From NCBI GenBank assembly GCA_011390515.1, contig JAABSJ010000028.1:1-39845 (forward strand): DNA of 39,845 nucleotides. Reading direction: 5' to 3'. Of this stretch, positions 1 to 39,845 are shown piece after piece. Under the pieces are notes generated by a model. That model was not told where the DNA came from. It worked only from the letters and a program-made list of their open reading frames with translations, and did no database searches. How positions within the stretch are numbered: position 1 is the first letter of the stretch; each line of letters starts with the position of its first letter. The translations under genes were made by a program, and so were the position numbers. The stretch is from Oscillatoria sp. Lineage in GTDB: Bacteria; Cyanobacteriota; Cyanobacteriia; Cyanobacteriales; Laspinemataceae.

Positions 1-299
1 ATGAAGAGAACGACTGAAGTCGTTACTACGAACATGAAGAGAACGACTGAAGTCGTTACTACGAACATGAAGAGAACGACTGAAGTCGTTACTACGAACA
101 TGAAGAGAACGACTGAAGTCGTTACTACGAACATGAAGAGAACGACTGAAGTCGTTACTACGAACATGAAGAGAACGACTGAAGTCGTTACTACGAACAT
201 GAAGAGAACGACTGAAGTCGTTACTACGAACATGAAGAGAACGACTGAAGTCGTTACTACGAACAAAAGAAGAGAACGACTGAAGTCGTTACTACGAAC
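1..299 (-). repeat. Tandem hairpin-repeat array, nine copies
   Basis: Eight identical 33-bp units run from the first base to 264, followed by a ninth, slightly diverged copy at 275-299. Each unit carries an inverted repeat (AACGAC, loop TGAA, GTCGTT). Read on the minus strand the unit is GTTCGTAGT followed by a hairpin and a TTCTCTTC tail, so the array lies directly 3' of the minus-strand SLH gene. The unit length is a multiple of three, which leaves an open frame coding for repeated MKRTTEVVTTN; I regard that as accidental. The array may continue past the window edge. Perfect identity of the eight copies points to recent expansion. Confidence 0.95.
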
Positions 300-310
300 T
301 TGGGGAATGA

Positions 311-946
311 TTAGTTCGGGATGTCGGGGATAGTGCCGGGATTGTTTTGTTTTGCTAAATATTGACTTAAGGCATAAGCCATATCTGCACGAGTCATCGG
401 TTGTAAGGGATTGAGAGCGTTATTGTTGCCAATATTCACTAACTCCTCAAAGATAGCAGTGGCTAGGGCTTGTTTGGCCCAATCTGGGGTTTGATAGCCA
501 TCTCGATAGGAGGTTAAAATCCGATTAACATCAGCATCATTAATCATTAAAACCCCAAAAGCCTGGGCAAAAATTGCAAATCCTTCGGCGCGAGTTACGG
601 GTTGATTGGGATGGAATCTGCCGGTTAAATCGCCTTTCATAATTCCAGTTTCCATGGCGATTTCAATGTCTTTATAGGCCCAATGGGAGGGCGAAACATC
701 GGGAATGGGTTGATTTTGATTGGTGACTGTATTACGTTGGTCCAATTGAAAGGTTTTGACGAGAATCGAGGCGAGTTCGGCGCGAACAACTCCGCGTTCG
801 GGATGAAATTGTCCGTCAGGATATTGAGTCATTAACCCGGATTCAAGAACCTCTTGAATAGGATTAATCGGTTGTTGTGCTTGGACGGGGATCATCATGC
901 TTTGCAGCAGTAAGGTGACGGAAATGAGGGTTAAAATTTTCTTCAT
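311..946 (-). CDS. SLH-domain secreted/envelope protein
   Basis: The 211-residue product starts with a clear signal peptide (basic MKK, hydrophobic core, VQAQQ cleavage region near residue 24). The rest is three S-layer-homology (SLH) units at about residues 28-70, 80-130 and 140-198. They show the usual pattern of an aromatic/glycine turn (YPDGQFHPER, GRFHPNQPVTRAE, ALNPLQPMTRAD) followed by a hydrophobic helix. SLH triplets bind cell-wall polymers; in cyanobacteria they also occur in outer-membrane porins, but no beta-barrel region follows here, so this is a free SLH protein. No Shine-Dalgarno sequence is visible before the ATG. The hairpin array at 1-299 begins 11 bp after its stop codon. 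Family assignment is strong; the physiological role is unknown. Confidence 0.9.
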   Translation of the reverse strand: MKKILTLISVTLLLQSMMIPVQAQQPINPIQEVLESGLMTQYPDGQFHPERGVVRAELASILVKTFQLDQRNTVTNQNQPIPDVSPSHWAYKDIEIAMETGIMKGDLTGRFHPNQPVTRAEGFAIFAQAFGVLMINDADVNRILTSYRDGYQTPDWAKQALATAIFEELVNIGNNNALNPLQPMTRADMAYALSQYLAKQNNPGTIPDIPN

Positions 947-3560: not shown

Positions 3561-3600
3561 CTAAATGTAGAGGCGATTCCCGAATCGCCTCTACATTTAG
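3561..3600. repeat. Perfect 40-bp palindrome of the GGCGATTC...GAATCGCC family
   Basis: Two 19-bp arms (3561-3579 and 3582-3600) are perfectly complementary around a CC centre, extending the core GTAGAGGCGATTC. The same core recurs in the tandem repeat at 39607-39845. It lies in the divergent spacer between cobA-hemD and the glycosyltransferase. It is a dispersed palindromic repeat, not a terminator: it follows no gene end and has no T-run. Confidence 0.9.
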
Positions 3601-3675: not shown

Positions 3676-4491
3676 ATGTCAACCCAGCAGCAAACTATCT
3701 CCCTCCTTTGTCCCACAAGAGGCCGTCCGGAACAGGCATTACGACTAGCTTTGAGCGTATTAAACACAGCATCTCAACCCCAGCGAGTCGAACTGCTGTT
3801 TTATGTGGATGATGACGACAGCAAACAATCGGAGTATTTGGAACAGTTTAAAACCCATAAACCGGAATTGGACCGCTTTCGCCGCTGTGGGTTTTTATTA
3901 GGAGAGGCGATCGGGATTTCCAAAGCATGGAACGAACTCGCCAGTCGCTGCCAAGGTAACCTCCTAATTATGGCAGCCGATGACCAAACCTACAACGACT
4001 TCGGATGGGACGATCGCCTCGACATCGAAACCCAGAAATATCCCGATGAAATCTTTTGTATGTGGTTCAACGAAGGACATTGGCAAGAAAAACTCTGTAC
4101 CTTCCCCATCGTCTCCCGCAAATGGTGTCAAACCTTGGGCTATTTTACCACGGGATTATTTGAATGCCTTTATGATGATATGTGGATTTGGGAAATTGCC
4201 AAACGAGTCGGCAGATTGCATTATATTCCGGATATCCTCACCGAACATTTACACTGGGGATATGGTAAAGCAGAAATCGATGAAACCTATCAACATAAAC
4301 AAGTCGATGCTGACAAGAACTTAAAACCGGCAGTCTATCGAGACATGGACTTATATTGTAGAACCGTTCCCTACCGAGAAACCGATGCCAGACGCATTGC
4401 TGCCGTCATGCAAGGAAAAGTTTTCCTCTATCCCGTACAGTTAATGGTCCCCGGAAAATCCACCATCTTCGATCGCCGAGACAAAGATTAA
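3676..4491 (+). CDS. GT-A-like glycosyltransferase
   Basis: A 271-residue protein beginning with a nucleotide-sugar-binding Rossmann strand (ISLLCPTRGRP), then a DxD-like cluster (FYVDDDDSK, about residue 40) and an acceptor/metal segment (LIMAADDQTYN, about residue 97). This is the order seen in small GT-A glycosyltransferases. The C-terminal half (WGYGKAEIDETYQHK) resembles bacterial proteins of this type that act on surface glycans, but the sugar and acceptor cannot be read from sequence. I chose ATG 3676 over ATG 3649 because the fold starts immediately after it and the upstream ATG sits in a hairpin loop with AGGA touching it. An array of hairpin repeats begins 10 bp after the stop. It faces the FkbM methyltransferase gene. 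Confidence 0.75.
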   Translation: MSTQQQTISLLCPTRGRPEQALRLALSVLNTASQPQRVELLFYVDDDDSKQSEYLEQFKTHKPELDRFRRCGFLLGEAIGISKAWNELASRCQGNLLIMAADDQTYNDFGWDDRLDIETQKYPDEIFCMWFNEGHWQEKLCTFPIVSRKWCQTLGYFTTGLFECLYDDMWIWEIAKRVGRLHYIPDILTEHLHWGYGKAEIDETYQHKQVDADKNLKPAVYRDMDLYCRTVPYRETDARRIAAVMQGKVFLYPVQLMVPGKSTIFDRRDKD

Positions 4492-4500
4492 TCTTCCCCA

Positions 4501-4792
4501 GTTCGTAGTAACGCCTTCAGGCGTTCTCTTCTCTTATGTTCGTAGTAACGACTTCAGTCGTTCTCTTTCTTAGTTCGTAGTAACGACTTCAGTCGTTCTC
4601 TTATCTTATGTTCGTAGTAACGACTTCAGTCGTTCTCTTTCTTAGTTCGTAGTAACGCCTTCAGGCGTTCTCTTATCTTATGTTCGTAGTAACGACTTCA
4701 GTCGTTCTCTTCGTTTGTTCGTAGTAACGACTTCAGTCGTTCTCTTTCTTAGTTCGTAGTAACGACTTCAGTCGTTCTCTTTCTTAGTTCAA
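4501..4792 (+). repeat. Hairpin-repeat array, eight plus-sense copies
   Basis: Units begin at 4501, 4538, 4573, 4610, 4645, 4682, 4717 and 4752, with spacing alternating 37 and 35 bp at the start. Each has GTTCGTAGT, then a 6-bp stem with a TTCA loop, then TTCTCTT or a similar pyrimidine tail. Copies at 4501 and 4645 have the stem pair changed from A-T to C-G on both sides (AACGCC/GGCGTT). Because these are every fourth unit, the array seems to be a duplicated four-unit block of about 144 bp. It follows the plus-strand glycosyltransferase in sense orientation. Confidence 0.95.
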
Positions 4793-4796
4793 GGAA

Positions 4797-4953
4797 CCAG
4801 AAACCGGGTTTCTGCGATAACTGTTGCTTTATTGCCTAAATTTATGAAAGAAACCCGGTTTCTCACCCCCTACAAAGGACCAGAAACCGGGTTTCTGCGA
4901 CAACTGTTGCTTTATTGCCTAAATTTATGAAAGAAACCCGGTTTCTCACCCCC
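4797..4953. repeat. Two direct copies of a 74-bp element bounded by GAAACCSGGTTTC palindromes
   Basis: Copies occupy 4797-4870 and 4880-4953 and differ at one base. Each starts with AGAAACCGGGTTTCT and ends with AGAAACCCGGTTTCT; these 15-mers are inverted copies of each other and each is nearly self-palindromic. The middle of about 40 bp is A/T-rich and identical. The structure is like a very small terminal-inverted-repeat element without coding capacity. It sits between the plus-sense and minus-sense hairpin arrays. Confidence 0.9.
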
Positions 4954-4956
4954 GAT

Positions 4957-5196
4957 AACGACTGAAGTCGTTACTACAAACGGGGAAAAATAACGACTGA
5001 AATCGTTACAACGAACTAAGAAAGAGAACGACTGAAGTCGTTACTACAAACGGGAAAAGATAACGCCTGAAGGCGTTACTACGAACTTGGATAAGATAAC
5101 GCCTGCAAGGCGTTACTACGAACTTGGATAAGATAACGACAGCAAGTCGTTACTACGAACTTGGATAAGATAACGACAGCAAGTCGTTACTACGAA
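4957..5196 (-). repeat. Hairpin-repeat array, seven minus-sense copies
   Basis: Copies start at 4957, 4992, 5027, 5062, 5098, 5135 and 5172, all in the opposite orientation to the array at 4501-4792, and so in sense with the minus-strand FkbM gene whose 3' end lies at 5211. Stems vary in a compensated way: AACGAC/GTCGTT or AACGCC/GGCGTT. Minus-strand loops are TTCA, TTGCA or TTGCT. The copy at 4992 has a changed stem base that still pairs as a U-G wobble on the minus-strand RNA but would be a C-A mismatch on the plus strand. Confidence 0.95.
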
Positions 5197-5210
5197 TAGG
5201 GAAACAGGAT

Positions 5211-6050
5211 TTAAAAATCATCATTTAAGGCGAAAACTAAGTTAAAGACATATTGCGACTTATAATATTGATCCGGGGATAATTTCACCCAGTTTGGGGA
5301 CTCGTTTCGCAATAAATAGGGACTGTATCCTAGGGATGCCATGAACTCTCGTAACTGTTTTTCATCCGTTCCCATTTTATGTAAGGCAAAGCGATTGATT
5401 TCGGCAATAATGTAGGGGACTTGATAGGTAGTTAGGGTTTGTAAGGAACCTTGCAAAACTTGATGTTCCGCCCCTTCTGTGTCAATTTTAATTAGTTTTA
5501 CCCCCGTTAATCCTTTGTCTCGGAGAACTTCATCCAGGGTTGTCATGGGTAGAGTGGAGGTTTGCCGGTGACTGCGGCTGATTTTATTAAATTCATGCAA
5601 TCCCACATCCCATAAGGCGTGTCCCCCATCATTATCGGCATTATAGAAGAATTCTACAGGTTTCGTTTCTGAACCCAAGACTGTAGGAATTACCTCCATT
5701 TGGGGGAACTGATTTAAGGTAATATGGTCTTGAATCCAGTCGATATTAGTTTTATCCGGTTCAATGCTAATTACTCTGCCAGTTTCACCGACTAGAATCG
5801 CGGCGAGAAGGGAGTAATAGCCAATATGTGCGCCAATATCAATAAAGGCATCTCCGGGTTTTAACACCCGTTCTAAAAATTTAGATTCTTCTGGTTCGTA
5901 GAATTTTCCCTGGGAAAAGTAGTTCCACATGATTTTTTGGCTGTATTTGGAAATATCCAAATCTAGGCGCAATTTATGATAGTCATGATTCAGTCGAACT
6001 AACAGATTAAAGGGTTTTCTTTGGGAAGATTCGGGCAGGGTTTGAGTCAT
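5211..6050 (-). CDS. FkbM-family SAM-dependent methyltransferase
   Basis: A 279-residue protein with the FkbM-type Rossmann fold: motif I FIDIGAHIGYYSLLAA (about residues 69-84), the acidic end of strand 2 (VISIEPDK) and the family hallmark LIKIDTEGAEHQVLQG (about residues 187-202). FkbM enzymes O-methylate hydroxyls in polyketides and, in many bacteria, sugars of surface glycans. Here the genes upstream (a TPR/glycosyltransferase giant) and opposite (a glycosyltransferase) favour a glycan substrate; that is inference. Start ATG at 6050; no Shine-Dalgarno sequence is seen. It is separated from the upstream gene by 136 bp containing a repeat, so it may have its own promoter. Confidence 0.9.
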   Translation of the reverse strand: MTQTLPESSQRKPFNLLVRLNHDYHKLRLDLDISKYSQKIMWNYFSQGKFYEPEESKFLERVLKPGDAFIDIGAHIGYYSLLAAILVGETGRVISIEPDKTNIDWIQDHITLNQFPQMEVIPTVLGSETKPVEFFYNADNDGGHALWDVGLHEFNKISRSHRQTSTLPMTTLDEVLRDKGLTGVKLIKIDTEGAEHQVLQGSLQTLTTYQVPYIIAEINRFALHKMGTDEKQLREFMASLGYSPYLLRNESPNWVKLSPDQYYKSQYVFNLVFALNDDF

Positions 6051-17858: not shown

Positions 17859-19193
17859 ATGACTGTTGCTAGAACGATTTGTCTCGGCTTTCTGGTGATC
17901 ATTGCGATCGGCACAATCCTGCTGCTGCTGCCCGTCTCCACCAGTGATGGGACCTGGAACAATTTCGTCACTGCTTTATTTACCGCCACCTCCGCTGTCT
18001 GTGTCACGGGCCTAATCGTCGTCGATACCGGCACCCATTATTCCGGATTGGGGGAATTTTTCATTCTCTTGCTGATTCAACTCGGTGGACTCGGTTACAT
18101 GACCGCCACCACCTTTCTGCTGCTGCTACTGGGACGGCGCTTGGGATTGCGAGACCGGATAGCGATTCAACAATCCTTAGATACCGCAGAAATGTCCGGG
18201 GTGGTCCCCTTGGTACGTTCCATTGTTGCCATGACTCTAGTCTTTGAACTAACCGGGATGTTCGTACTCCTGTTTATTTTTATCCCAGACTTCGGCTTTA
18301 ACAATAGCCTGTGGCTGTCAATTTTTCATAGCATTAGCGCATTTAACAATGCCGGGTTTAGTTTGTTTGCCGATAGTTTAATGGGCTATGCCGGATCCAT
18401 CCCCATGAATTTGGTGATCACCTTCTTGGTGATTTTTGGGGGGATTGGCTATCAAGTCATCATGGAAATGTATATGTGGGTGCGCGATCGCATTTCCAGA
18501 AATCCCGAACGGGTTGTCTTTTCCCTTCATTTTAAAATCGTCACCAGTACCACCCTGTTACTGCTGATTCTAGGGGCGATCGCCTTCTTCTTCACCGAAT
18601 CCCAAAATCCCGAAACCTTGAAAAATGTCGGATTCCTCGAACGGATACTCAGTGCCTGGTTTCAGTCCGTCATCACCCGTACTGCTGGATTTAACAGCAT
18701 CGATATCGGTCAAATGACCACAGCGGCCCTCTTTATCACCATTGCCTTGATGTTTATCGGGGCCTCTCCAGGCAGTACCGGAGGCGGCATCAAAACCACC
18801 ACCGTGCGCGTCCTGGGAAGCTGCACCCGTTCCGTACTCCAGGGACGCAACCAGGTGCTCTGCTTTGAACGCCAAATTCCCCCAGAACTGATTTTGAAAG
18901 CCGTTGCCGTGGTCCTCAGTTCCTTCAGCGTCGTCGTGGTTGCCACCATTTTGCTGGCAATCAGCGACCCCAACATTGAATTTATCGAGCTTTTCTTTGA
19001 AGTCATCTCCGCCTTTGCCACGGTCGGTTTGTCTATGGGGATCACCGGCAATCTCTCCACCCTCGGCCAACTGGTGATCATCGTCACCATGTATGTAGGC
19101 CGGGTGGGAATGGTCATGCTCATGAGCGCCCTGATTGGAGACCCCAAACCCTCCAACATCCGCTATCCAGAGGAAAATTTGTTAGTGGGATGA
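17859..19193 (+). CDS. ktrB: Potassium uptake channel subunit KtrB (TrkH family)
   Basis: A 444-residue membrane protein with four M1-P-M2 units. The four selectivity-loop segments are visible: AVCVTGLIVV (about 46-55), AFNNAGFSLF (161-170), TRTAGFNS (273-280) and AFATVGLSMG (385-394). The gating loop GASPGSTGGGIKTTT (about 301-315) lies between the third and fourth units. The length is typical of KtrB and shorter than TrkH. The conserved loop glycines fit potassium selectivity; KtrB is usually driven by sodium. Its regulatory subunit KtrA is encoded 317 bp downstream on the same strand. No ribosome binding site is seen before the ATG. Confidence 0.93.
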   Translation: MTVARTICLGFLVIIAIGTILLLLPVSTSDGTWNNFVTALFTATSAVCVTGLIVVDTGTHYSGLGEFFILLLIQLGGLGYMTATTFLLLLLGRRLGLRDRIAIQQSLDTAEMSGVVPLVRSIVAMTLVFELTGMFVLLFIFIPDFGFNNSLWLSIFHSISAFNNAGFSLFADSLMGYAGSIPMNLVITFLVIFGGIGYQVIMEMYMWVRDRISRNPERVVFSLHFKIVTSTTLLLLILGAIAFFFTESQNPETLKNVGFLERILSAWFQSVITRTAGFNSIDIGQMTTAALFITIALMFIGASPGSTGGGIKTTTVRVLGSCTRSVLQGRNQVLCFERQIPPELILKAVAVVLSSFSVVVVATILLAISDPNIEFIELFFEVISAFATVGLSMGITGNLSTLGQLVIIVTMYVGRVGMVMLMSALIGDPKPSNIRYPEENLLVG

Positions 19194-19510
19194 AGGGATT
19201 GGGGGGAGTGGGGGAGTGGGGGAGATAGGGAGGATGGGGAGGATAGGGAGGATGGGGAAGTTTGTAGTAACGACTTCAGTCGTTTCCTCCCCATCTCCCC
19301 CATCTCCCCCATCTCCACATAAGTACAAATCTCCCCAGAAAGTTGGTACTCTAACAAAAGTAAATCATGCTCTTGCCGTCAGCACCTCTCCACTGAGGGG
19401 GCGCAATAGATTCCAGACCCTGGATTCAAAAGGCAGTTGGCGGCACTCACGAATCAGATGGCATTTCTAGTGGCATCTGAATCCATTGATTCCAATCCAA
19501 GGTAGCTCCT
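19194..19510 (+). other. ktrB-ktrA spacer with GA-rich and CT-rich arms around one hairpin repeat
   Basis: 19200-19259 is nearly pure purine (GGGGAG, GGGAGGAT and similar units) and 19285-19325 is its pyrimidine counterpart (CTCCCCCAT units). The two arms could fold into a long imperfect hairpin with one copy of the AACGACTTCAGTCGTT repeat (19260-19284) at its tip. The remaining part, to 19510, shows nothing clear. The open frames here are by-products of the low-complexity DNA. Confidence 0.7.
19260..19284 (+). repeat. Single plus-sense copy of the 3'-end hairpin repeat
   Basis: GTTTGTAGT followed by the AACGAC-TTCA-GTCGTT hairpin and TTCCTCC. It has the same orientation as the ktrB gene it follows, 66 bp after the stop. 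Confidence 0.9.
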
Positions 19511-20378: not shown

Positions 20379-20972
20379 ATGTTGGGTAAATTCTTTAAAA
20401 AACCCTCTGCGGAACTGGGCGATCGCGTTCCCCCCGGACAACATCTGGCTACGGGGTTTCCTGTCCTCACCTATGGGGATACGCCACAAATTTCTCGCGA
20501 TCGCTATTTTTTAAAAGTCTGGGGTCTGATCGAACCTCAAACCTTTACCTGGGATGACCTGATGGCCATGCCCCAACAGGAGTTTACTGCTGATTTCCAC
20601 TGTGTGACTCGCTGGTCTAAACTCGATGTCAAGTGGAAGGGAATCAAAGTCCTAGATTTCATGAAGCAACTGGCAGTGGATCCGAAAGCAATTTGCATCA
20701 TGGAACATTGCTATGGCGGTTATACCACCAATATTGCGATCGCAGATTTCCTCCGGGAAGAAAACTTTTTCGCCCATACTCTCTTTGATGAACCCCTGAG
20801 TCCCGAACATGGCGGCCCCCTCCGCCTCGTCGTCCCTCATCTTTACGCCTGGAAAAGTGCCAAATGGATTAACGGTTTAGAATTTTTAGCCCAAGAATCA
20901 TCGGGATTTTGGGAACGCAACGGTTACCACCAACGAGGAGAACCCTGGACAGAAGAACGCTACAGTTACTAA
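20379..20972 (+). CDS. Sulfite-oxidase-like molybdopterin oxidoreductase
   Basis: A 197-residue protein that corresponds to the molybdopterin-binding domain of the sulfite oxidase/MsrP family without haem or dimerisation domains. The hallmark FHCVTRWSKLDVKWKGI holds the cysteine expected to ligate molybdenum (about residue 75), followed by MEHCYGGYTTNI and the C-terminal PHLYAWKSAKWINGLEF. Proteins of this short form are annotated as sulfite-oxidase-like oxidoreductases; the substrate is not known. There is no signal peptide, so a cytosolic location is likely, unlike TAT-exported MsrP. No Shine-Dalgarno sequence precedes the ATG. A hairpin-repeat array follows 18 bp after the stop. Confidence 0.88.
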   Translation: MLGKFFKKPSAELGDRVPPGQHLATGFPVLTYGDTPQISRDRYFLKVWGLIEPQTFTWDDLMAMPQQEFTADFHCVTRWSKLDVKWKGIKVLDFMKQLAVDPKAICIMEHCYGGYTTNIAIADFLREENFFAHTLFDEPLSPEHGGPLRLVVPHLYAWKSAKWINGLEFLAQESSGFWERNGYHQRGEPWTEERYSY

Positions 20973-20990
20973 CTAGGTTATCCCTCTTGT

Positions 20991-21195
20991 GTTCGTAGTA
21001 ACGACTTTAGTCGTTATCTTGTCCTAGTTTATAGCAACGACTTCAGTCGTTATCCCTCTTGTGTTCGTAGTAACGACTTTAGTCGTTATCTTGTCCTAGT
21101 TTATAGCAACGACTTCAGTCGTTATCTTGTTGTAGTTCGTAGTAACGACTTCAGTCGTTATCTTGTTTTAGTTCGTAGTAACGACTTCAGTCGTT
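20991..21195 (+). repeat. Hairpin-repeat array, six plus-sense copies with 36-bp period
   Basis: Copies start at 20991, 21027, 21063, 21099, 21135 and 21171, exactly 36 bp apart. The first four form a duplicated 72-bp dimer: GTTCGTAGT with a TTTA loop alternates with GTTTATAGC with a TTCA loop. Stems are perfect and are followed by TTATCTTGT or TTATCCCTCTT tails. The array follows the plus-strand molybdoenzyme gene in sense orientation. Confidence 0.95.
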
Positions 21196-21214
21196 ATCTT
21201 TCTAATTCCCAGGT

Positions 21215-21239
21215 AACGACTAAAGTCGTTACTACAAAC
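21215..21239 (-). repeat. Single minus-sense copy of the 3'-end hairpin repeat
   Basis: AACGAC-TAAA-GTCGTT followed by ACTACAAAC on the plus strand, the reverse of the adjoining six-copy array. It therefore reads in sense with the aldehyde dehydrogenase gene, whose 3' end is 60 bp away. Confidence 0.9.
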
Positions 21240-21276
21240 AGCAAAGAAAAAACCGGATAGTCTTCCTATTTTCCCC

Positions 21277-21290
21277 GACTCTAAAGAGTC
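21277..21290 (-). terminator. Short hairpin after the aldehyde dehydrogenase gene
   Basis: GACTCT-AA-AGAGTC lies 9 bp beyond the stop codon. No T-run follows on the minus strand, so it is a weak terminator candidate at best. Confidence 0.35.
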
Positions 21291-21298
21291 AGATTTCC

Positions 21299-22678
21299 CT
21301 ACCCCCCAATAAACCGTTTGATAAACTCAAGCTTGTTTTTATAAGGCGGATAGCGCAAATCTAAATCAAAGCGGAAAGACTTCTCTAACACACTTTTTGA
21401 GTGAGAAAAGGTATCAAAACTGGCTTTACCATGATAAGAACCCATTCCACTTTCCCCGACGCCACCAAAGGGTAATTCAGAAACCCCCAGATGCATGATG
21501 GTATCATTGAGGCAAACGCCACCACTCGATGTTTCTCTCAGGACTTGTTGCTGCTGTTGTTTATCCGTGGAAAATAGATAAAGGGCGAGGGGTTTGGGTT
21601 TTTGGTTGATAATGGCGATCGCCTGGTCTAGTTTGTCATAGTCCAGAACCGGCAGAATGGGCCCAAAGATTTCCTCTTGCATAATCGGCGAAGCGAGGGA
21701 GACGCCATCGAGAACCGTTGGTGCAATATAGCGATCGCCTGCATCGGTTTCACCCCCAACCAGAATTTCTCCATCCTGGAGTAACCCTCGCAGACGCTCA
21801 AATTGTTTGTCATTAATAATCCGGCCATAGTCGGGACTATTGGCCGGATTTTGACCATAAAATTCAGTAATGGTGCGTTCAATTCCCACCAACAAATCTC
21901 GTTTAATCCGACGATTGACCAACAGATAATCCGGGGCGATACAAGTTTGACCGGCATTCATAAACTTGCCCCAAACAATCCGCTTGCAAGCAGTGGGTAG
22001 GTCAATATCGGTCTCGACAATACAAGGACTTTTCCCGCCCAGTTCTAGGGTGACTGGGGTCAGATGTTTCGCCGCCGCTTCCATGACAATTCGGCCAATA
22101 TGAGTCCCCCCGGTAAAGAAGATATGGTCAAATTTTTGGGATAATAAATCTTGGGACACTTCCACCCCGCCTTCCACGACGGCAATATAACTCGGATCGA
22201 AGGTTTTGCGGATTAAGTCGGCGACAAGGTGCGAGGTATGAGGCGCAATTTCGGAGGGTTTTAAGGTGACACAGTTTCCAGCAGCAATGGCCCCGAGTAA
22301 GGGAGAAATGGTTAACTGAAAGGGGTAATTCCAAGGACTGACAATCAAAACAACGCCTAATGGATCGGGATAAATTCGTGCCACACTCGGGAATTGGTCG
22401 AGGGGACGGGCGACGGTTTTAGGTTTGGCCCAGGATTTAAGATGTTTGAGGACATAATTGATTTCTCGAATGACGCCAACTTCGGTCAAATACGCTTCAA
22501 CTTCTGACTTTTTCAGGTCTTTATTCAGGGCATCAAGGACGAGTTCCTTGCTATCAATAACGGCTTGTTTCAGCCGTTTCAGTTGTTCGATGCGAAAGTC
22601 GAGGTCTTTGGTTTTTCCTGTGGCAAAGAATTGGCGTTGGGCCTCAATCACGTCACAAATGCGAGATGTGGTCAGCAT
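21299..22678 (-). CDS. Aldehyde dehydrogenase family protein
   Basis: A 459-residue NAD(P)-dependent aldehyde dehydrogenase of the short class-3-like type. It shows the cofactor and substrate motifs VSPWNYPFQL, KPSEIAPHTS, FTGGTHIGR, LELGGKSP with the general-base glutamate (about 212) and NAGQTCIAPDY with the catalytic cysteine (about 245), then EEIFGPILPV. The C-terminus has a hydrophobic/basic tail (FRFDLDLRYPPYKNKLEF) as in fatty-aldehyde-oxidising members. In cyanobacteria the closest described enzyme, AldE/AldH (slr0096), removes fatty aldehydes; that role is inferred. ATG has AAGGA 9 bp upstream, inside a perfect palindrome. Convergent with the molybdoenzyme gene across the repeat arrays. 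Confidence 0.9.
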   Translation of the reverse strand: MLTTSRICDVIEAQRQFFATGKTKDLDFRIEQLKRLKQAVIDSKELVLDALNKDLKKSEVEAYLTEVGVIREINYVLKHLKSWAKPKTVARPLDQFPSVARIYPDPLGVVLIVSPWNYPFQLTISPLLGAIAAGNCVTLKPSEIAPHTSHLVADLIRKTFDPSYIAVVEGGVEVSQDLLSQKFDHIFFTGGTHIGRIVMEAAAKHLTPVTLELGGKSPCIVETDIDLPTACKRIVWGKFMNAGQTCIAPDYLLVNRRIKRDLLVGIERTITEFYGQNPANSPDYGRIINDKQFERLRGLLQDGEILVGGETDAGDRYIAPTVLDGVSLASPIMQEEIFGPILPVLDYDKLDQAIAIINQKPKPLALYLFSTDKQQQQQVLRETSSGGVCLNDTIMHLGVSELPFGGVGESGMGSYHGKASFDTFSHSKSVLEKSFRFDLDLRYPPYKNKLEFIKRFIGG

Positions 22679-25126: not shown

Positions 25127-28100
25127 ATGAAACGAATTGTTTTAATTGCAGGATTTGAATCGTTTAACGCTGACTTGTACCGGCAAGCAGCACAGGTGGC
25201 AATTGCGCGCTGTCCTGAGTTGGATATTCGGGTCTTTAGTGACGCAGACCTCACCGCCAAAACCGAGGAGGTAGCAACGGCACTTCAAGAGGCCGATGTC
25301 TTTTTTGCCAGTTTGATTTTTGACTATGATTGCGTCATGGGATTGCGGTCCAAGGTCCCGCAAATTCCCATTCGCCTGGTTTTCGAGTCTGCCTTGGAAT
25401 TGATGAGTTTAACTCAGTTAGGAAAATTTGCGATCGGGGACAAACCCAAAGGAATGCCGAAACCTGTGCAATTCATTCTGAGTAAGTTCTCCAGTGGCCG
25501 AGAAGAAGATAAACTCGCCGGATATATTAGTTTTCTCAAAACCGGACCCAAACTGCTCAAATATGTCCCGGTGCAAAAAGTCCAGGACCTCCGCAATTGG
25601 CTGATTATTTATGGATATTGGAATGCTGGAGGTGCAGAAAATGTTGCCGCCATGTTTTGGACTTTAGCGGAAAAATATCTCGGATTAACCGTGGGGGAAA
25701 TTCCTCCTCCCGTAGAGACTCCTAATATGGGATTACTCCATCCTGATTATTCCGGATATTTTGAATCACCCCGCCAATATTTAGACTGGTATCGCCGTCA
25801 AAATTCATCCTCAACCCATCCCGTTGTAGGAATTCTGCTTTATCGCAAGCACGTTATTACTCAGCAACCTTATATTCCCCAATTAATTCGCCACTTTGAA
25901 CAAGCGGGATTAATTCCGCTGCCAATTTTTATTAATGGGGTTGAGGGTCATGTGGCAGTTCGAGATTGGATGACATCCGCTGATGAAACCCGTCAGCGAC
26001 AGCAGGGAAATAATCAAACTCGGTCCTTATCTGCCGAAGCAGTGGAAGTGGATGCCATTGTTTCTACCATTGGATTTCCCTTAGTCGGAGGTCCTGCGGG
26101 TTCAATGGAAGCGGGACGGCAAATTGAAGTAGCAAAAGGCATTTTGACGGCTAAAAACCTCCCTTATTTTATCGCAGCACCATTATTAATTCAAGATATC
26201 CATTCTTGGACTCGCCAAGGGATTGGGGGATTGCAAAGTGTCGTGTTATATGCTTTACCTGAACTGGATGGGGCGATCGATACTGTTCCCCTCGGTGGTT
26301 TAGTCGGGGAAGACATCTATTTAATTCCTGAACGAGTCAAGCGGTTGACGGGACGGATTAAATCTTGGATTGAACTGCGAAAAACAGCCCCAGCAGACCG
26401 CAAAATTGCCATTATTTTATATGGATTCCCCCCGGGTTATGGCGCAACGGGAACCGCTGCTTTATTGAATGTCCCTCGCAGTCTCCTCAACTTCCTGCAA
26501 TCCCTCAAAGATAACGGTTACACTGTGGGGGATTTACCTACAGATGGGGAAGAGTTAATCCGACGGGTCAAGGTTGCCGATGAGTCACCGATGGAGACAA
26601 AATTAACGCGATCGCAAGGCATTATTCCCACCATAGTCAACGTCAAAACCCTGGATAAATGGTTGGGATATCTCCTGACTCGGCGGATTGAGAAGCAATG
26701 GAAATCTCTCACCGATACTGGCATCAAAACCTACGGAGATGACTATGCATTGGGGGGAATTCAGTTAGGCAATATTTGGATTGGCGTCCAACCCCCTCTC
26801 GGGATTTCTGGCGACCCCATGCGGTTAATGTTTGAACGAGATATGACACCCCATCCTCAATATGCCGCCTTCTATAAATGGCTGCAACATGATTTAAAGG
26901 CCCAAGCATTGGTTCATTTTGGAATGCATGGAACTGTGGAATGGTTACCCGGGTCTCCCTTGGGAAATACGGGCTATTCTTGGCCGGATATTCTCTTGGG
27001 AAATTTGCCGAATCTCTATATTTATGCCGCCAATAATCCCTCGGAATCAATCTTAGCCAAGCGGCGGGGATATGGAGTGTTAATCTCCCATAATGTGCCG
27101 CCTTATGGTCGGGCGGGATTGTACAAAGAGATGGTATTGTTGCGGGAATTGATTGGAGAATATCGGGAAGATCCTGCAAAAAATTCAGCATTGCGGGAGG
27201 CGATCGCCACAAAAATTGTCGATATTGGCCTAGAAATGGACTGTCCCTTTGCCGAAGCCAAAAAATTAGGCATTGACTTCACCCCAGAAACAGCCAGAAT
27301 GTTTAGCCCCGAGGTGTTAAACCCCTATTTTATCACCATTTATGACTATTTACAAGTCGTCGAACAACGGCTATTTTCCTCCGGACTACATACCCTGGGA
27401 GAACCTCCCAATACAGCCGCATTAAAGTCTTATATTGATGCCTATTTTGACCAAGACTTTGACAAGGAACTTGTAGAGGAACTCGCCACCGGCAACAGTC
27501 CAGAATCCCTCTCTCAACTCATCCCCAATCCCGATGAAGCAATGCAAATTTGCCAATTATTAAGGCAAACCCCCGACGAAATGACCAACCTCCTGCGCGG
27601 ATTAAATGGGGAATATATACCCCCTGCACCCGGTGGGGATTTATTGCGCGATGGACCAGGAGTTTTACCCACGGGACGGAATATTCATGCCTTAGACCCC
27701 TATCGAATGCCCTCCCCTGCTGCCTACAGTCGAGGGCGAGAAATTGCCCAAAAAATCATCGCCCAACATCAGCAAGAAACCGGGCAGTATCCTGAAACTG
27801 TCGCGGTGATGTTATGGGGATTAGATATCATCAAAACACGCGGCGAATCCCTAGCCATTCTGTTAGAATTAGTCGGGGCAGAACCTATCAAAGAAGGAAC
27901 GGGACGGATAGTCCGCTATGAACTCCAAACCTTAGACCAAGTAGGACATCCACGCATCGATATTTTAGCCAATCTATCCGGCATTTTCCGCGATAGCTTC
28001 GTCAATATTATCGAACTGCTGGATGATTTATTTTTACGCGCTGCTGAAGCAGATGAACCCGAAGACCAAAACTTTATCCGCAAACACGCTTTAGAGTTAA

Positions 28101-30548: not shown

Positions 30549-33500
30549 TTACCAAGGAGAACCAATGGTGATAAATCCGGCCCAATAGTAAGGATGGGAA
30601 AAGTCCGTCATGGTGAACTGTTGCAATTCATTCGGCAAGGCGATCGCCCCGTTAGAACCCATGAGTTGTCCCGCTTCCAACCGGACGGTTCCCCGCAGCA
30701 TTTCCAGTTGGGCGCGGCGCAATCCTTCGGAACGAATCGGGGCCGATCGCAATTGCCGGTATAATTCAGTCATTAATCCTAATGTCGCTTCATCATTCAC
30801 ATACCATAAGGAGGCGATCGCAGATTTCACCCCGGACTGCAATGCTAACCCAGCAAATCCTAACTCCGCCTGTTCATCTCCAATGGCAGTCCGACAGGAA
30901 CTCAACACTAATAATTCCACTTCTGGATTATGCCATTGTAACTCTTTCATTTGGGAAAATGGCAAGCGATGATTCCATAACTTAATATAAGATTCCCCCG
31001 CATCTCCCGGTTGAAAATCGGCATGAGTCGCTAGATGAACCATGCGAAAATCTCCTTGATTTCCCCGCTTTTTCAAGATATCCAGGGTAAAGTCTTCATT
31101 TAAAAATCGTTCACCAGGCCAACAAGAGTCGGACCCAAGCTGCGTCTGACAAATAATAGTTTCTAACTCAACTGGAACCGCTGGCAAGGGGTTTGAGTCC
31201 AAAAATTTAGAAGCTCCCATTGCCAAAACTTTCTCGGTTTTCAAGTTAGCATATACAGGTTGAGTTAGACTAAAACTCGGCATCACGGACAGACTGTACC
31301 GTTCAATCAGAAAGGTTTCGCCATCATGGAGTGCAGCAAAGGGAAGCGATCGCACTCCAGCGTCAGGAATAAAGGATAGATTTTCGATGCCTCGTTGTTT
31401 CAGGGTGGGTTCAATGGGTTCAATTAACAAGCGATGAAGCTGTTGAGAGGACTGGAGATAGCGGTGAGTGTGGATCATTTTGAAATTGGTAATTTCCCCG
31501 CGCATTTCTAAGGTTAATTTCTCAACCAGTGCACGATTCGCCTCGGGGATTTGAATCCGTAAGGGTTGCTCATGTCCGGTGACTACTAATAATTCTACTG
31601 GGTCATCAGCATGGCGATCGCAAGGCCATCCTAATTCTTCTTCCCGGGTCCGACTGCGCTGCCAGTCCTCATGGCGATCGCCATTGGGACAAATCAATGC
31701 CGCATTTTCATGCAACTCCGTTCGTCCAAACACGATATACACCACAGCGGTTTTGATTCCCGTCGCCTCCTCGGTTTGCCGCAGGGTTTGTCGCACTTCA
31801 TTGAGGGACTGGATATCCACAGGAGATGAATCTTGAAAATAGTCCATATACTCCCGAGATAACGCTTCTTCCAAAGTCGTCACTTCCACATCTAAATCAA
31901 GTTCCACCGGAGAACCAACGGCGATCGGTTCTGACTGTTGAGCGGTTTCTAACGCTAAATAGGAGGAGTTTCCCGTAGAGTCCGACTGAGTTTCTATCGC
32001 CGTACTGGATTCTGTTTCCGGGGCGATCGCAGAGGCGATCGAGGCACTAACTGTCGGTTTTGGTTCTAAAGGTGAGAGGGAAGGGGGTAGAGTTCCTGTC
32101 GGAGAACCCGTGCGCGTGGGTTCAGGATTCATCATCCCGGTTGGAGTCAGGGTTGGGGGTTGGGTTGGTTCAGGTTGTCTTACCCCATCATTTCCCTGCG
32201 GCAACGAGGTGATTTCCGGTGGGGATATACTCGGTCCTCCGGGGGGTTCTGATGGAAGTGACCCGGGTGACATCAGTTCCGGGTTACTTCCTTCCTGGGG
32301 TAAGGATTCCGGGGTGGATAACGGTTCCCCGAGAGGAGGTATCTCTGGCTGTGTGAGAGTTGGGGATGCCGGTCCTGCTTGAGGTTCCAGCGCTTCCGGT
32401 GCCGGTTCCGGCGCTTCCGGCGCGAGTTCCGGTTCCGGTACAAGTTCCGGTTCCGGCACAAGTTCCGGTTCCGGTTCCGGCACAAGTTCCGGTTCTGGTT
32501 CCGGCACAAGTTCCGGTTCCGGTTCCGGTTCTGGTATCGGTTCCGGTTCCGGTTCCGGCACAAGTTCCGGTTCCGGTTCCGGCACAAGTTCCGGTTCCGG
32601 TTCCGGTTCTGGTATCGGATCGACGCCATCATCGGTTGCGATCGTAATATTCCCCCGGGTAATCGAACGGGGGAATATTTCCCCGATATTGAGGGTAGAT
32701 GTCCCCGTGGTAATCACATCCCGAGTGCCATGCAACAGGGGATTGCCAATTTCAAACCCTTCAATCGGGTCGATATCATCTCCTCCAGCATGATTTAATG
32801 TGATACTCCCACCCCCTGTACTCCCTGCCGAGGAAATACTGGCAAACCCCGTGGGAGAATACTCACTGGCAAAGGAATCGGTGGCGCGGAACAATCCCCC
32901 AGTGGTTTCGATGAAGATGTCACCGCCTTTGCCATTGGTTCCCCCTTGTGCGTTAATCCAGGAGACTTGGATATCCCCAATCGGGTCCAGAAACACATTC
33001 CCCGCATCTCCCAAAGTAGCGCTAGCGTTGATCGCACCGGCAGTAATGGCAATCTGGGCCATCACCGTCACATTTCCCCCTTGGGTGACCCCAGATGCTG
33101 TGAGATTGCCGGTGAGAATTTCACCTTGGGTACTGGTGACACTCAGATTTCCTCCGGTGGTGGCAGAAGCGGTATCTAAATTCCCGCTTTGGACATTGCC
33201 AGACAGACTTTCTAGGGTAAGTTGCTGTCCATTAGTGGTGATATCCGCCACCGTTAGCAGATTCTCACTCTCGATTTGGACTCCCGGTGCAGCAGTGGTG
33301 GTCAGGTTCCCCTGAAGCGTGAGAGTTCCGGTACTGGAGGCGCGGAAACTGGCGGCAGCAAGGGTATCCATCGCTGTGAGATTTGCCGAATTCTGGATGA
33401 TGAGATTTCCTAACGGTTGCTGACTGCCAACGGCGCGATTAAAGGTGACATCCCCCATTCCGGCGTTGAGGGTGAGATTTTGGGGGACATTGGTTGCGCT

Positions 33501-36500
33501 ATCCAGCAGACCCCGGAAGAGAATCTGACCCGGACCCGCGCCGGTTGTAATCAGGGAATCGGACCCGAGGGCGATCGCGCTATCAAATGTGATACTCCCT
33601 CCATTCGTGGTCACATCCCCCCCTAAAATAGTCTTCTCCGTGGTCACATTTAACTGATTTAACGGTGAACTCTCCCCAATATTTCCCCGGAATTCTATCG
33701 AACCCGTTCCCGCATTCAAGCTCAAACCCGATGACCCTAAACTCTCTCCAGAATTGCCATCAATATTGCCCAGAATTGTAATATTTCCCCCTTCCTGGTC
33801 CGTGGTGAGGGTAATCTCATTTCCCAGAATCAGATTGCCGGTCAAATCAATATTATTCTGAGGAGTTACCACATCAGAATTGAGGTAAATTGTCGCGGCA
33901 TTCAGGGAAATTGCTGCATTATCTGACCCGGTAATCATCCCATCCACAACAATCTCTCCCGAACCCCCTTGGAGGGTTAACGGGTCGGTAAAGGTGACGG
34001 GATTCACAATAGAAATATTTCCCGTAGAGTCAGTCCGTCCAATCGTAATCGAGGTAAAACCATCTTGAATTTGTGCTAAATTATTTTGGGTTAAATCTAA
34101 ACTCTCCTCGGCATCGTTAGGATTCCCTAGGGTAATATTTTGGGTTGGGGTTGCCGGTTGCAGGGTGAGGGTATTAGTCCCGGTAACTGGCCCATTAAAA
34201 TCGATTTCTCCTGCGGTTAAGGTGAGGGGATTGTTGCCCGCATCTACACTGGAACCGAAAACTAAACCCCCAGTTCCGGGGTTTAAATTGGCTCCTTCGG
34301 TGAGGATGACAGGTGCAGCAAACCGGATATCATGATTGGGGGTTTTTAAAGTGCTAGAAAGGGTGACGGTTCCCGGGCCTGTTTGCTGAAAAGCCCCATC
34401 TAAATTAAAGGGAGTAGTAATTTCTAACGGGTCAGTATTGGCAACAGTTAACGAACCCGTTCCCCGGGTAGTAACGCCTTGGTTAAAGATGAAGCGATTG
34501 CCGGTCAACATGATACCATCCGGCCCATTGGTGGTAATTAAATCATTAAATGTCGTTCGACCTGTGCCCGCTAACTGATGTAAATGACCTGCGGTAATGG
34601 CCTGAGTTGTGACATCATGGGCATTAACGATCGCCAGGGTATGCAAGGGGATTTGACTGCCTACGGGTTGAGTTAAGAGGATATTACCGATTCCGGCATC
34701 CAGGTTCAGGGTGTAATTTCCATCGATAGTCCCGCCTACAATTAGATTACCCGAACCTGTGCGTAAGGTAATATTATTGAGCAAATTAACGGCACCGTCT
34801 AGGGTGATATTTTGAGTGGTGGTGATGATGTTATTGGTGAGATAAATTTGACTTCCCGTTTTGAGGGTGAGTGCATAATTAGTGGCGCTGAGGTCCATTT
34901 CTCCTAAAGACCCGACATAAATATCACCGACAGTCTCCGAACCAATGGTTAGGGTCCCATTTGGGATGTCTAACATCAGCAATTCTGGCATTGTGAGACT
35001 GTATTCTCCACTGGCATCATGAATGGCGATCGCCTGACCCGGGGCGATCGGTTCTAAAATGAGATTATTGTTACTAGAGATACGACTTTCATCTTGAAAA
35101 CTAATATTACTCCCTCGAAAAGTAACGTTCCCCTGGCCCGTTTGCATCGGGTTAACAAAGCTGTTGCTAAATCCGATGCCTTCTGCACCATTCACGCCGA
35201 TTCCTTCTAGGAGAATCTCTCCATTTCCGGTAGATTGGATGGTACTGTTATTCTCAACCTCAATGCCGAAATTGCGGTCACTCGTACCCTGTCCAGTCCC
35301 TGTTAAGGAAATATTTCCATTCCCTGACACGGTGCTATTTTCCATCCGGATTCCCATGTTTGAATGAGTGCCAATCCCCCCCATTCCTTCGATGGCGATC
35401 GCCCCGGTTTGGGATTGGATGTTACTCCCATTTACCAAACTTACCCCGGCATTCAGTTGTGCCGTCCCATCCCCACCAATTCCCCGGAGTCTAATATTTC
35501 CCGTCCCTGATGTAATCCGGGAACTCTCCATGAGAATCCCATAATTTTGTTCAGTTCCGGTTCCTCCAATCCCTTCTAGGATAATGTTTCCCTCAGTCGA
35601 TTCTACCTGGTTCCCGGTTTTAAAAATAATTCCGAGATTAGTAATTCCGGTGCCATTTCCCCCGACCCCTCGCATCCGAATATCACCGACATTAGACGTG
35701 ATGGAAACATTATTATCGACATAGATGCCGTAGTTATCCACCGTTCCATTTGCCCCGGTTCCTTCTAAGATAATTGACCCCATGAATGAACGCAAAGAAC
35801 TCCCATTCATCAAGCTAATTCCATCATTGACATTTTCCGTGCCTTTGCTGAAACCTGTTAACCGGATATCTTCATAAGCAGAAACCGATACCCCATCTCG
35901 GATAGCGACTCCAGTATTGAAATTTCCCACATCTCCCCCCGTCCCCTCCATCACAATCGACCCGGTTTGAGAGTCAAGGATACTATTCATTAAAACACTC
36001 ACCCCTCGGTTATTGATTCCGCTCCCTTTTGCCGTTCCCGTTAAGCGAATATCTCCATTTGCAGAGAAGGTAGATTCACCAATTAATATCCCGGCAGTCC
36101 AGTCCGTTCCATTAACCCCAAACCCTTCTAAAATAATCGTTCCCCCTAAAGATTCTAAGCGGCTATTATTTTGAATGTTGATACCTGGGTTGTATTCTCC
36201 GGTGCTATTGCCACCCGTCCCCATGATGCGAATATTGCCATTTTCTGAGCGGATAGTCACCCCATCCCCAAATATTCCTAGGTTAGAGGTTACCCCATCA
36301 CCGCCCTTTCCAGTCAGGGTAATATCGGCATTCGCGGAGAGGGTGGCATTTTGAAGATATAGCCCAGTATTCCAGTTAATTCCTGCCCCTCCGATGCCAT
36401 TCAGGGCGATCGTCCCATTTCCAGTTGTTTCTATCCGACTGCCTTGATGAATTAGAATCCCGTTGTAATAATCGCCCAACCCTCCACTCAATCCGGTTCC

Positions 36501-38276
36501 TGTAATCTGGATATTACCCCCGGCAATGTTGATGGTACTGTTAGTAATTTGAACTCCGTTACTATTTGCTAATACCCCCGTTCCTGTGGCGTTGAAATTG
36601 CCCCCTCCGGTATTAATCACCGCATTGTTAATGGCTATTTCACCCCCATTGGCATTATCAATATCAGCATTTAAGACCAGATTCAAAGAATCTCCCCCGG
36701 GAACACCATCCGTAATATCCGCATTGATAATAATGTTGTTATGGGCGTTTAAAGTTAGGGTATTATTGTGTCCGGTTCCGTTATAATTAATGGGCGCATT
36801 GACCGTAATACTTCCCTCTTGGGTCCCCCCATTTCCGGTTTCAATGGTGACAGATTGATTTCCACCTGTTAGGGCAGCTAAAATCAGGTTTACTCCAAGT
36901 TGTGCCGTATCCCCTTGAGCCACAAAGGGATTACTATTGTTAATATTGACAGCCCCTGCCCCTGCTACAATGTCGATATTATTGGGGTCAATTAGCCATT
37001 CCCCACCGATTCCGCAAGTGGGAGGATTCGGACAAGTGGCGCGCGCCTTGGGAACTGTGGTGACTTCTAAAAATTCCAATCCACTGGTTTCTATAAACCC
37101 GCCATTTCCCCCGAAAATACCCCCTTGGGCGCTAATTTCTCCATAAATCTGGGCGGTTTCTTCTGCAAAGATAATGATCCGTCCACCATCACCAAATTCC
37201 GTGACATCGGCAGCAATGGTGGAGTCATCACTGATAAAGGTTTGTAAGGCATTCGGAATGGTTCCTTGACCCCGTTGATCGCCACCGATGAGGATAGTCC
37301 CCCCGCGATGAGTTCCCGATGTATTGATATCGGCATCGATGACGGCAACGCGATTTCCTACGATTGAAACTTGTCCTTGGGATGAATTAATACTGCCCGA
37401 AACCAGACTATCTCCAGGTTGAGTCTCGATGCTCATTCCTGAACTGGATAACTGCACGCTACCATCGGCATTAACGGTTATTTGATGGGCATGATTTACT
37501 CCAGAACCTGTCAGCAATTCCGGTAAGGATTGGGGAGTGGAAATATCTAGTCCTGATATGCCGGTTCTGATGTCTAAACTTAACAGGTGATTCTCTTGAG
37601 AAATTCGGACAACACTCTCGCCGGGAACCGCTGCAATGGTTATATTGCCTCCCGGTGCAGATAAAGTGCCGCTATTGAGGAGGGTTCCGCCTAATAGGGT
37701 TAAGTTGTTACCCGGTTCTAGGGTTAAGTTGCCTTGGTTAATAATCGCACCGGGTTGGAGGGTGGAAAAGGCAAATTGAGAGGGGGTTCCGACTAGATTA
37801 GACCAGTGATTATCGCCTACGGCATTAAACCAATTGCCTTCACTGAATCCGATGCCGGTGGCAGTTGTCGCGAAAAAATCGGCGGGGACGTTTAATTGAG
37901 CGTTGGGTCCAAATAAGATTCCGGCAGGATTCATTAAATAGAGGTTTGAATTGCCGCCGGTGAGTTGAATTAATCCGTTAATGATGGAGGCATCTCCGCC
38001 AGTAATGCGTCCTAAAATATTTTGAATTTCGGGGTTGGAGAGGAAGTTGGCAACTTGTCCGGGGTCGAGTCCAAATTGTTCAAAACTATGGAATAAATTT
38101 GCACCGTCTTTGGAGAGTTGTCCGCCTTCAATATTAAATTCTGGTCCTTCTGGTGTGACAATTGTGCCGGTGTTATCGGAGGCGGGGGTAATGGGTTGCG
38201 CGAGGGAAGATTTAGCTATTCCGGTGAGATAGGAAAGCAACAGTAGAGATACGATCGCCCTGATGGTGTGATTCAT
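30549..38276 (-). CDS. Filamentous-haemagglutinin-type exoprotein with C-terminal CHAT protease domain
   Basis: A 2575-residue secreted protein. A signal peptide (ending near SSLAQPI, residue 27) is followed by a TPS/haemagglutinin N-domain (about 30-270; [19 protein letters not shown]). About 1550 residues of parallel beta-helix repeats follow, among them a block of roughly 40-45-residue units with GNIRLTGxGGDG and NxGIxxxxxS patterns. Then comes a Pro-Glu linker (about 1879-1962) and a Pro-rich stretch, and last a CHAT caspase-like domain (about 2180-2575) with the His of VHLATHADF (His 2418) and Cys of LVLSSCRTA (Cys 2461). TPS N-domains need a TpsB pore; none is in the window. In cyanobacteria this exoprotein-CHAT fusion is known. 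The protease may act in surface signalling, self-processing or defence; unproven. No ribosome binding site is seen. Confidence 0.92.
32390..32640 (-). repeat. GGTTCC hexanucleotide minisatellite coding for a Pro-Glu linker
   Basis: GGTTCC units, broken by GGCACAAGTTCC and GGTATC variants, repeat along about 240 bp and translate to PEPEPEP and LVPEPEPE. The higher unit is 18-30 bp. It lies between the beta-helix and the CHAT domain, so changes in unit number would lengthen or shorten the stalk without a frame change. Confidence 0.9.
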
Positions 38277-39606: not shown

Positions 39607-39845
39607 GGCGATTCTCGAATCGCCTCTACAGATTTCATGGGGTTGCGGGGGATGTTTTGTTTGGACTGGCGATTCTCGAATCGCTTCTACAGATTTCATG
39701 GGGTTGCGGGGGATGTTTTGTTTGAACTGGCGATTCTCGAATCGCTTCTACAGATTTCATGGGGTTGCGGGGGATGTTTTGTTTGGACTGGCGATTCTCG
39801 AATCGCCTCTACAGATTTCATGGGGTTGCGGGGGATGTTTTGTTT
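39607..39845. repeat. 61-bp tandem repeat, four copies to the window edge
   Basis: Copies begin at 39607, 39668, 39729 and 39790; the last is cut by the window end. Each has GGCGATTC-TC-GAATCGCC (or GCT in copies two and three) plus TCTACAGATTTCATGGGG and a GTTGCGGGGGATGTTTTG segment. The palindromic core matches the 40-bp palindrome at 3561-3600. The array lies 3' of the LprI-domain gene. Confidence 0.95.

Follow-up and report, generated by a model that had tools for sequence, protein, structure and literature searches.

The stretch analysed here (hereafter the window; 39,845 nucleotides) makes up contig C201 in a Laspinema-type genome assembled as 376 contigs and 5.97 Mb (the home genome). 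It holds 32 copies of a short hairpin repeat (REP) in six arrays of 9, 8, 7, 1, 6 and 1 copies, and every array lies 3′ of a called gene and on the strand of that gene; both observations were made in a preliminary description of this DNA, and both were reproduced. The features are as follows.

1–299, minus strand: REP array of nine copies, period 33–35, at the contig end and 3′ of gene 311–946
3567–3594, no strand assigned: one copy of a second GTAG REP, GTAGAGGCGATTC-CCG-AATCGCCTCTAC
4501–4792, plus strand: REP array of eight copies, period 35–37, left arm of a head-to-head set
4793–4956, no strand assigned: spacer between the arms, two copies of a ~83-nt unit
4957–5196, minus strand: REP array of seven copies, right arm of the same set
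19260–19284, plus strand: single REP between TrkH-like and TrkA-like genes
20991–21195, plus strand: REP array of six copies, period 36, left arm of a head-to-head set
21215–21239, minus strand: single REP, right arm of the set with 20991–21195
311–946 (minus), 3751–4491 (plus), 5211–6050 (minus): called open reading frames preceding arrays
17859–19193 (plus), 20379–20972 (plus), 21299–22678 (minus): further called open reading frames preceding arrays

Each ~83-nt unit of the spacer at 4793–4956 contains AGAAACCGGGTTTCT and AGAAACCCGGTTTCT, which are mutual reverse complements. AGAAACCGGGTTTCT gave 32 matches, both strands counted, in 994 kb of the home genome, and the units are perhaps another hairpin family. 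A longer, GCAAG-type loop occurs in three of the seven copies of the 4957–5196 array. A 110-residue open reading frame at 1–333, lying over the first array, was not retained by the gene caller and is most likely a by-product of the repetitive sequence; 12-nt periodic repeats were seen at 32388–32651, within a 2575-residue open reading frame at 30549–38276 (minus strand).

Sequence and copy number of the hairpin repeats

The REP takes the form GTTY-GTAGT-AACGACTTCAGTCGTT, and the consensus of 109 singletons with full flanks was GTTY-GTAGTAACGACTTCAGTCGTT-n-Y-C, with hardly any conservation outside it. GTAG-tagged REPs are marked by a short stem-loop bearing GTAG on one side, by a high copy number and by an intergenic location, and all three were found here. 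The degenerate core GTAGTAACGNCTTNAGNCGTT matched the home genome 970 times (551 forward, 419 reverse), while the reversed pattern gave no match there; in 624 kb of the same genome, a first-order Markov control allowing at most five mismatches returned none, versus 163 in the real sequence. Only four of 241 sites were called inside genes (two in the home genome, two in G005). The exact 21-mer was present in 895 copies in the home genome and in 1106, 838, 564, 116, 110, 35 and 31 copies in seven other genomes of the genus; all eight genomes of the genus thus carry it, and none of the 21 other relatives searched does.

Among the matches listed, 108 stretches held the 21-mer. Laspinema olomoucense, L. 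palackyanum, Oscillatoria sp. HE19RPO and Phormidium pseudopriestleyi accounted for 67 of these and Spirirestis for one; the other 40 were non-cyanobacterial, mostly from Chloroflexota, and an inverted partner lay within 200 bases at 17 of the 29 non-cyanobacterial loci examined from that set. Arrays in G005 (L225), HE19RPO (L124) and G006 (C1) have GTAGTAACGAC swapped for AACGTCACGAC or AACGTCCCGAC, and the variant units carrying these lack the GTAG tag. Literature searches with the letters of the REP 25-mer and 16-mer did not find the sequence, and none of the papers on Laspinema repeats, judged by title, concerned REPs.

The second GTAG REP family (GTAGRGGCGATTC..GAATCGCC) recurs at 39607–39629 and 39790–39812, where its copies lie inside tandem repeats of 61 bp at the end of the contig. 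It gave 50 strand-hits in 994 kb of the home genome, and copies surround a RAYT-like gene on contig C328 (L032) that scored 73 bits, short of the NCBIfam cut-off (80).

Placement of the arrays and their strand relative to genes

Genes were called with our own hexamer-based open reading frame caller, and arrays were grouped by intergenic region in seven assemblies. From 241 region records we excluded the four inside genes and 46 at contig or stretch edges; the remaining 191 became 151 non-redundant groups when regions sharing a flanking gene were merged, the rule being at least 150 matching bases in one flanking gene, by which paralogues were possibly merged too. Two sets stand outside the strand grouping: piece L142 (153 bases) and stretches L272–L276 of G003. 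Regions of G005 were picked by the listed places of the 21-mer and cover 100 of its 110 copies. Home-genome stretches came in three sets: 20 from the contigs listed first in the core-pattern scan; 18 chosen by contig number, plus two that are the window; and a third in which six extend sampled contigs, three were taken by number and others hold matches from an earlier search or to the core pattern. Named loci were included for holding an exact match, and no stretch was selected by strand. Selection by match inflates occupancy overall, with no known reason for it to favour one gene context.

The preliminary description had assigned the arrays to the 3′ sides of genes, and this assignment held well beyond the window: copies are closer to the 3′ end of the upstream gene at 72 of the 84 tandem sites, with median distances of 47.5 bases (to that 3′ end) versus 134. 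In the home genome and G006 together, copies occupied 22 of the 155 gaps between convergent genes, 31 of the 536 between tandem genes and 8 of the 175 between divergent genes (convergent versus divergent, p 0.003). Downstream and convergent placement is a further mark of GTAG-tagged REPs, and passages of PMC3733652 report it for other families of REPs too.

Strand was a different matter. The preliminary description saw in the shared orientation a function at transcript ends, which we take here as that of an RNA element whose sense copies are kept after genes, and put the chance agreement of six arrays at about 1 in 32 if either consistent direction counts. The strong 3′-side placement and the agreement of all six arrays speak for such an element. 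The six arrays are, however, not six independent trials, because, inserted in either direction, a head-to-head set will agree with the two converging genes; the array at 1–299 and the copy at 19264 alone carry information about strand, and the figure of 1 in 32 falls away. Over the 151 non-redundant sites, a strict orientation rule is rejected. Tandem sites with a single orientation numbered 39 sense versus 23 antisense (~63%, p 0.056; 49 versus 26 before merging, p 0.011), and the array closest to the upstream stop was sense in 53 of 84 tandem sites (p 0.021); the latter count favours a transcript-end element. Against it, the home genome was evenly divided (6 sense, 6 antisense; G005, 26 versus 13), and convergent single-orientation sites matched the nearest gene in 12 cases and opposed it in 13. 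By copy number, the tandem single-orientation sites were 22 sense to 11 antisense with one copy, 7 to 3 with two and 10 to 9 with at least three. The single-copy ratio favours a transcript-end element, and the even split at sites with at least three copies speaks against it. The weak sense excess sits in small sites, and we therefore reject amplification as the mark of a selected sense function. Home-genome arrays at contig edges are similarly double-edged: beside gene 3′ ends the tag faces the gene in 11 of 13 (11 sense, 2 antisense), as a transcript-end element would have it, but arrays beside gene 5′ ends share the same outward GTAG, by 4 to 1.

Orthologous sites bear on the same question. 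The gap between the TrkH-like and TrkA-like genes contains a lone sense copy in the window and a head-to-head pair in both G004 and G006; in G007 the one copy is antisense and has three mismatches, and an antisense copy also lies at the start of a G003 contig, which does not show the upstream gene. G005 and G001 have no copy there, and the G002 sequence ends early. The antisense copies of G007 and G003 count against an element that must be read in the sense direction. At the 20972–21299 site, with 6+1 copies in the window, G005 has none, G002 and G007 one each, G004 and G006 four each, and G003 four plus one inverted. All copies of G002, G007, G004 and G006 share their strand with the upstream gene, and the copies by that gene are sense in all five other genus genomes that have them; this agreement fits a transcript-end element, but one ancestral insertion could account for it. 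In the 4491–5211 gap, G004 has 3+3 and G006 4+2 copies as compared with 8+7 in the window, and G007 has a single decayed one; other small genes intervene in G005 and G002, and the G003 sequence is cut. The differences at these orthologous sites of the window are insertion and array-length polymorphisms.

The change of orientation within both convergent gaps (4491/5211 and 20972/21299), to which the preliminary description drew attention, is real; the gene-based explanation attached to it is unneeded, since head-to-head pairing produces it. Among regions with both orientations, the outer order was plus-to-minus rather than minus-to-plus in 18 versus 6 convergent, 14 versus 6 tandem and 5 versus 0 divergent cases, and five further mixed regions begin and end on the same strand. 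Head-to-head order is thus found in all gene contexts, including those where copies become antisense to genes, and is independent of gene direction. One orientation only was found at 97 of the 151 sites, so the inverted pair is not the universal unit; among mixed sites, head-to-head order dominates. Pairing explains the flips, and orientation accordingly does not imply a function at transcript ends. The hairpin, moreover, is equally stable on either strand (-5.0 kcal/mol), which counts against a transcript-end element, and we consider such an element improbable. The apparent strand agreement in the window comes from small numbers, from the position of arrays on 3′ sides and from head-to-head sets, whose GTAG faces outwards.

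A related reading takes the arrays for intrinsic transcription terminators, given their position after genes and, in some arrays, a hairpin followed by a pyrimidine-rich tail. Yet only 9 of 126 singletons have at least five T in eight bases, the T fraction downstream is 0.31 as compared with 0.274 in gaps overall and 0.352 upstream, and the 6-bp stem is weak at the folding energy given above. With neither a stable stem nor a U tract, we reject this reading, which we hold to be very unlikely. Folded as RNA over 4492–5210, the paired arrays form long stems (-382 kcal/mol, a value taken without a shuffle control), and paired arrays may possibly affect transcripts, as sections of PMC8049555 and PMC3733652 report for REPs elsewhere.

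The RAYT gene and a proposed route of REP spread

A scan for Y1 transposases in all eight genus genomes placed a RAYT gene beside arrays of the REP of the window in three sister genomes, G003, G004 and G006 (loci L203, L202 and L201), and association with a RAYT adjoining the same REP is another mark of GTAG-tagged REPs. The protein is 198 residues long (180 residues near a contig end in G006). At L202 and L203 (G004 and G003), a plus-strand array lies on one side of the gene and a minus-strand array on the other, the left (plus) copies being degenerate in G003 (L203), with 4–5 mismatches; at L201 an array lies on one side only, followed by the contig end. The NCBIfam model REP_Tyr_transpos scored these proteins at 92.9–96.9 bits (curated cut-off, 80), and they carry NHYH, YIHYNP, WY and a proline-rich N-terminus, the marks given for subclass 2.8 (NHYH, YIHYNP, W[YH] and a proline-rich N-terminus) in the relevant part of PMC6006769. 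No other Y1 match in the genus was close to this RAYT, the best being 30–32% identical over ~100 residues.

Genomes with the RAYT have 564, 838 and 1106 copies of the 21-mer, and those without (G001, G002, G005 and G007) have 31, 35, 110 and 116. That the four RAYT-less genomes have the four lowest counts would occur in 1 of 35 arrangements if the seven genomes were exchangeable, which related genomes are not. The cognate RAYT was not found in the home genome, a draft in which contig C331 (26,132 bases) ends inside the gene adjoining the expected locus, the match stopping at 26,130; this negative covers the assembled sequence, which breaks at that locus.

RAYT relatives at 55–70% identity were found in a search of 148 genomes of the order. 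GTAGT hairpins with other stems occurred near 11 of the 18 RAYT loci fetched outside the genus, and the hairpin scan found none near the other seven. Of 21 non-cyanobacterial genomes taken from the 40 stretches among the matches listed, 14 had a RAYT match of some kind and seven had none; a full-length relative (44–49% identity) was present in eight, one with an in-frame stop. All eight of these full-length relatives, among the matches listed, lie near GTAGT hairpins, five of them near the exact 21-mer. In a tree, the Laspinema RAYTs group with cyanobacterial ones and are split from the Chloroflexota/KSB1 rows at 96/97, which indicates that the AACGAC stem was retained or reached twice, rather than recent transfer of the RAYT gene. 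The same 21-base REP was observed beside RAYTs only 44–49% identical across phyla (L299–L304 versus L201–L203), and cyanobacterial RAYTs that are 58–70% identical pair with different stems.

A model for the spread of these repeats emerges, in which we have high confidence: the repeats are GTAG-tagged REPs of a subclass 2.8 RAYT, often in inverted pairs, whose arms expand and which are lost upstream of genes. The TnpA_REP/RAYT of subclass 2.8 would recognise the GTAG-hairpin in single-stranded form and copy or move the REP, a role predicted for it from its family, and the mobilised unit would often be the inverted head-to-head pair. After insertion, single arms would grow into head-to-tail arrays that include a few flank bases, probably by replication slippage or unequal recombination, a step suggested by the locus-specific spacers and the copy-number differences at orthologous sites. 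Arrays would accumulate 3′ of genes as insertions upstream damage promoters and get lost. The motif, the copy number, the RAYT genes next to arrays of this REP in sister genomes, the higher counts where that gene is present and the varying occupancy of orthologous sites are direct observations in favour of the model. Against it stand the RAYT not found in the home genome, the 97 of 151 sites with one orientation, the seven non-cyanobacterial genomes that have the 21-mer and no RAYT match, and the seven related cyanobacterial loci where the scan gave no GTAGT hairpin.

A weak sense excess remains and is not fully explained. It is not due to head-to-head pairs, since the 39:23 sites have a single orientation. 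This residual could stem from insertion chemistry, if a RAYT acting on single-stranded DNA met strands unequally exposed by replication or transcription, but the excess is absent in the home genome, and we find this source doubtful; GC skew sampled in the 7.69 Mb G005 chromosome gave no clear origin or terminus. We would likewise give little credence to a ~2:1 strand preference at gene 3′ ends beyond REP pairing, with the GTAG-hairpin inserted by the RAYT, or retained by selection, on the coding strand shortly after the stop codon. Were that preference true, the transposase would read the direction of transcription.

Relation to known REP systems

What we describe is mostly familiar biology met in a new organism: the hairpins form a numerous family of very small mobile elements, REPs, of an established type, linked to an established type of transposase. 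The genus offers a clean comparative system, with one RAYT, 31–1106 REP copies and orthologous sites of 0–15 copies, and it illustrates how the geometry inherent in a mobile element can produce a conspicuous strand pattern within a single window.

In their GTAG tag and short loop, the repeats resemble the GTAG-tagged REP families of Di Nocera et al. 2013 (PMC3733652), which include the cyanobacterial GTAG-12, -15 and -16; the stem is 6 bp here and 6–9 bp in most of those families, according to the portions of that article compared. The two also have in common hundreds of copies, an intergenic location (convergent gaps and the downstream sides of genes), pairing both head-to-head and tail-to-tail, and association with RAYTs. 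The stem sequence did not appear in the portions of PMC3733652 compared, in which article the family table is a figure. The RAYT resembles subclass 2.8 as set out in part of PMC6006769 in its NHYH, W[YH] and YIHYNP motifs, its proline-rich N-terminus and its length of ~199 residues; flanking GTAG REPs, cyanobacterial hosts and relatives in other phyla are shared as well, and no difference emerged among the features compared with that part. As in the REPINs of Bertels and Rainey 2011 (PMC3116915, in the sections considered), REPs occur as inverted pairs and are locally reiterated in tandem together with flank. The larger copy numbers of RAYT-bearing genomes have a counterpart in the E. coli REPINs, as a section of PMC8049555 relates. 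Unlike the REPINs of those sections of PMC3116915, most sites here have a single orientation, and their arms expand head-to-tail.
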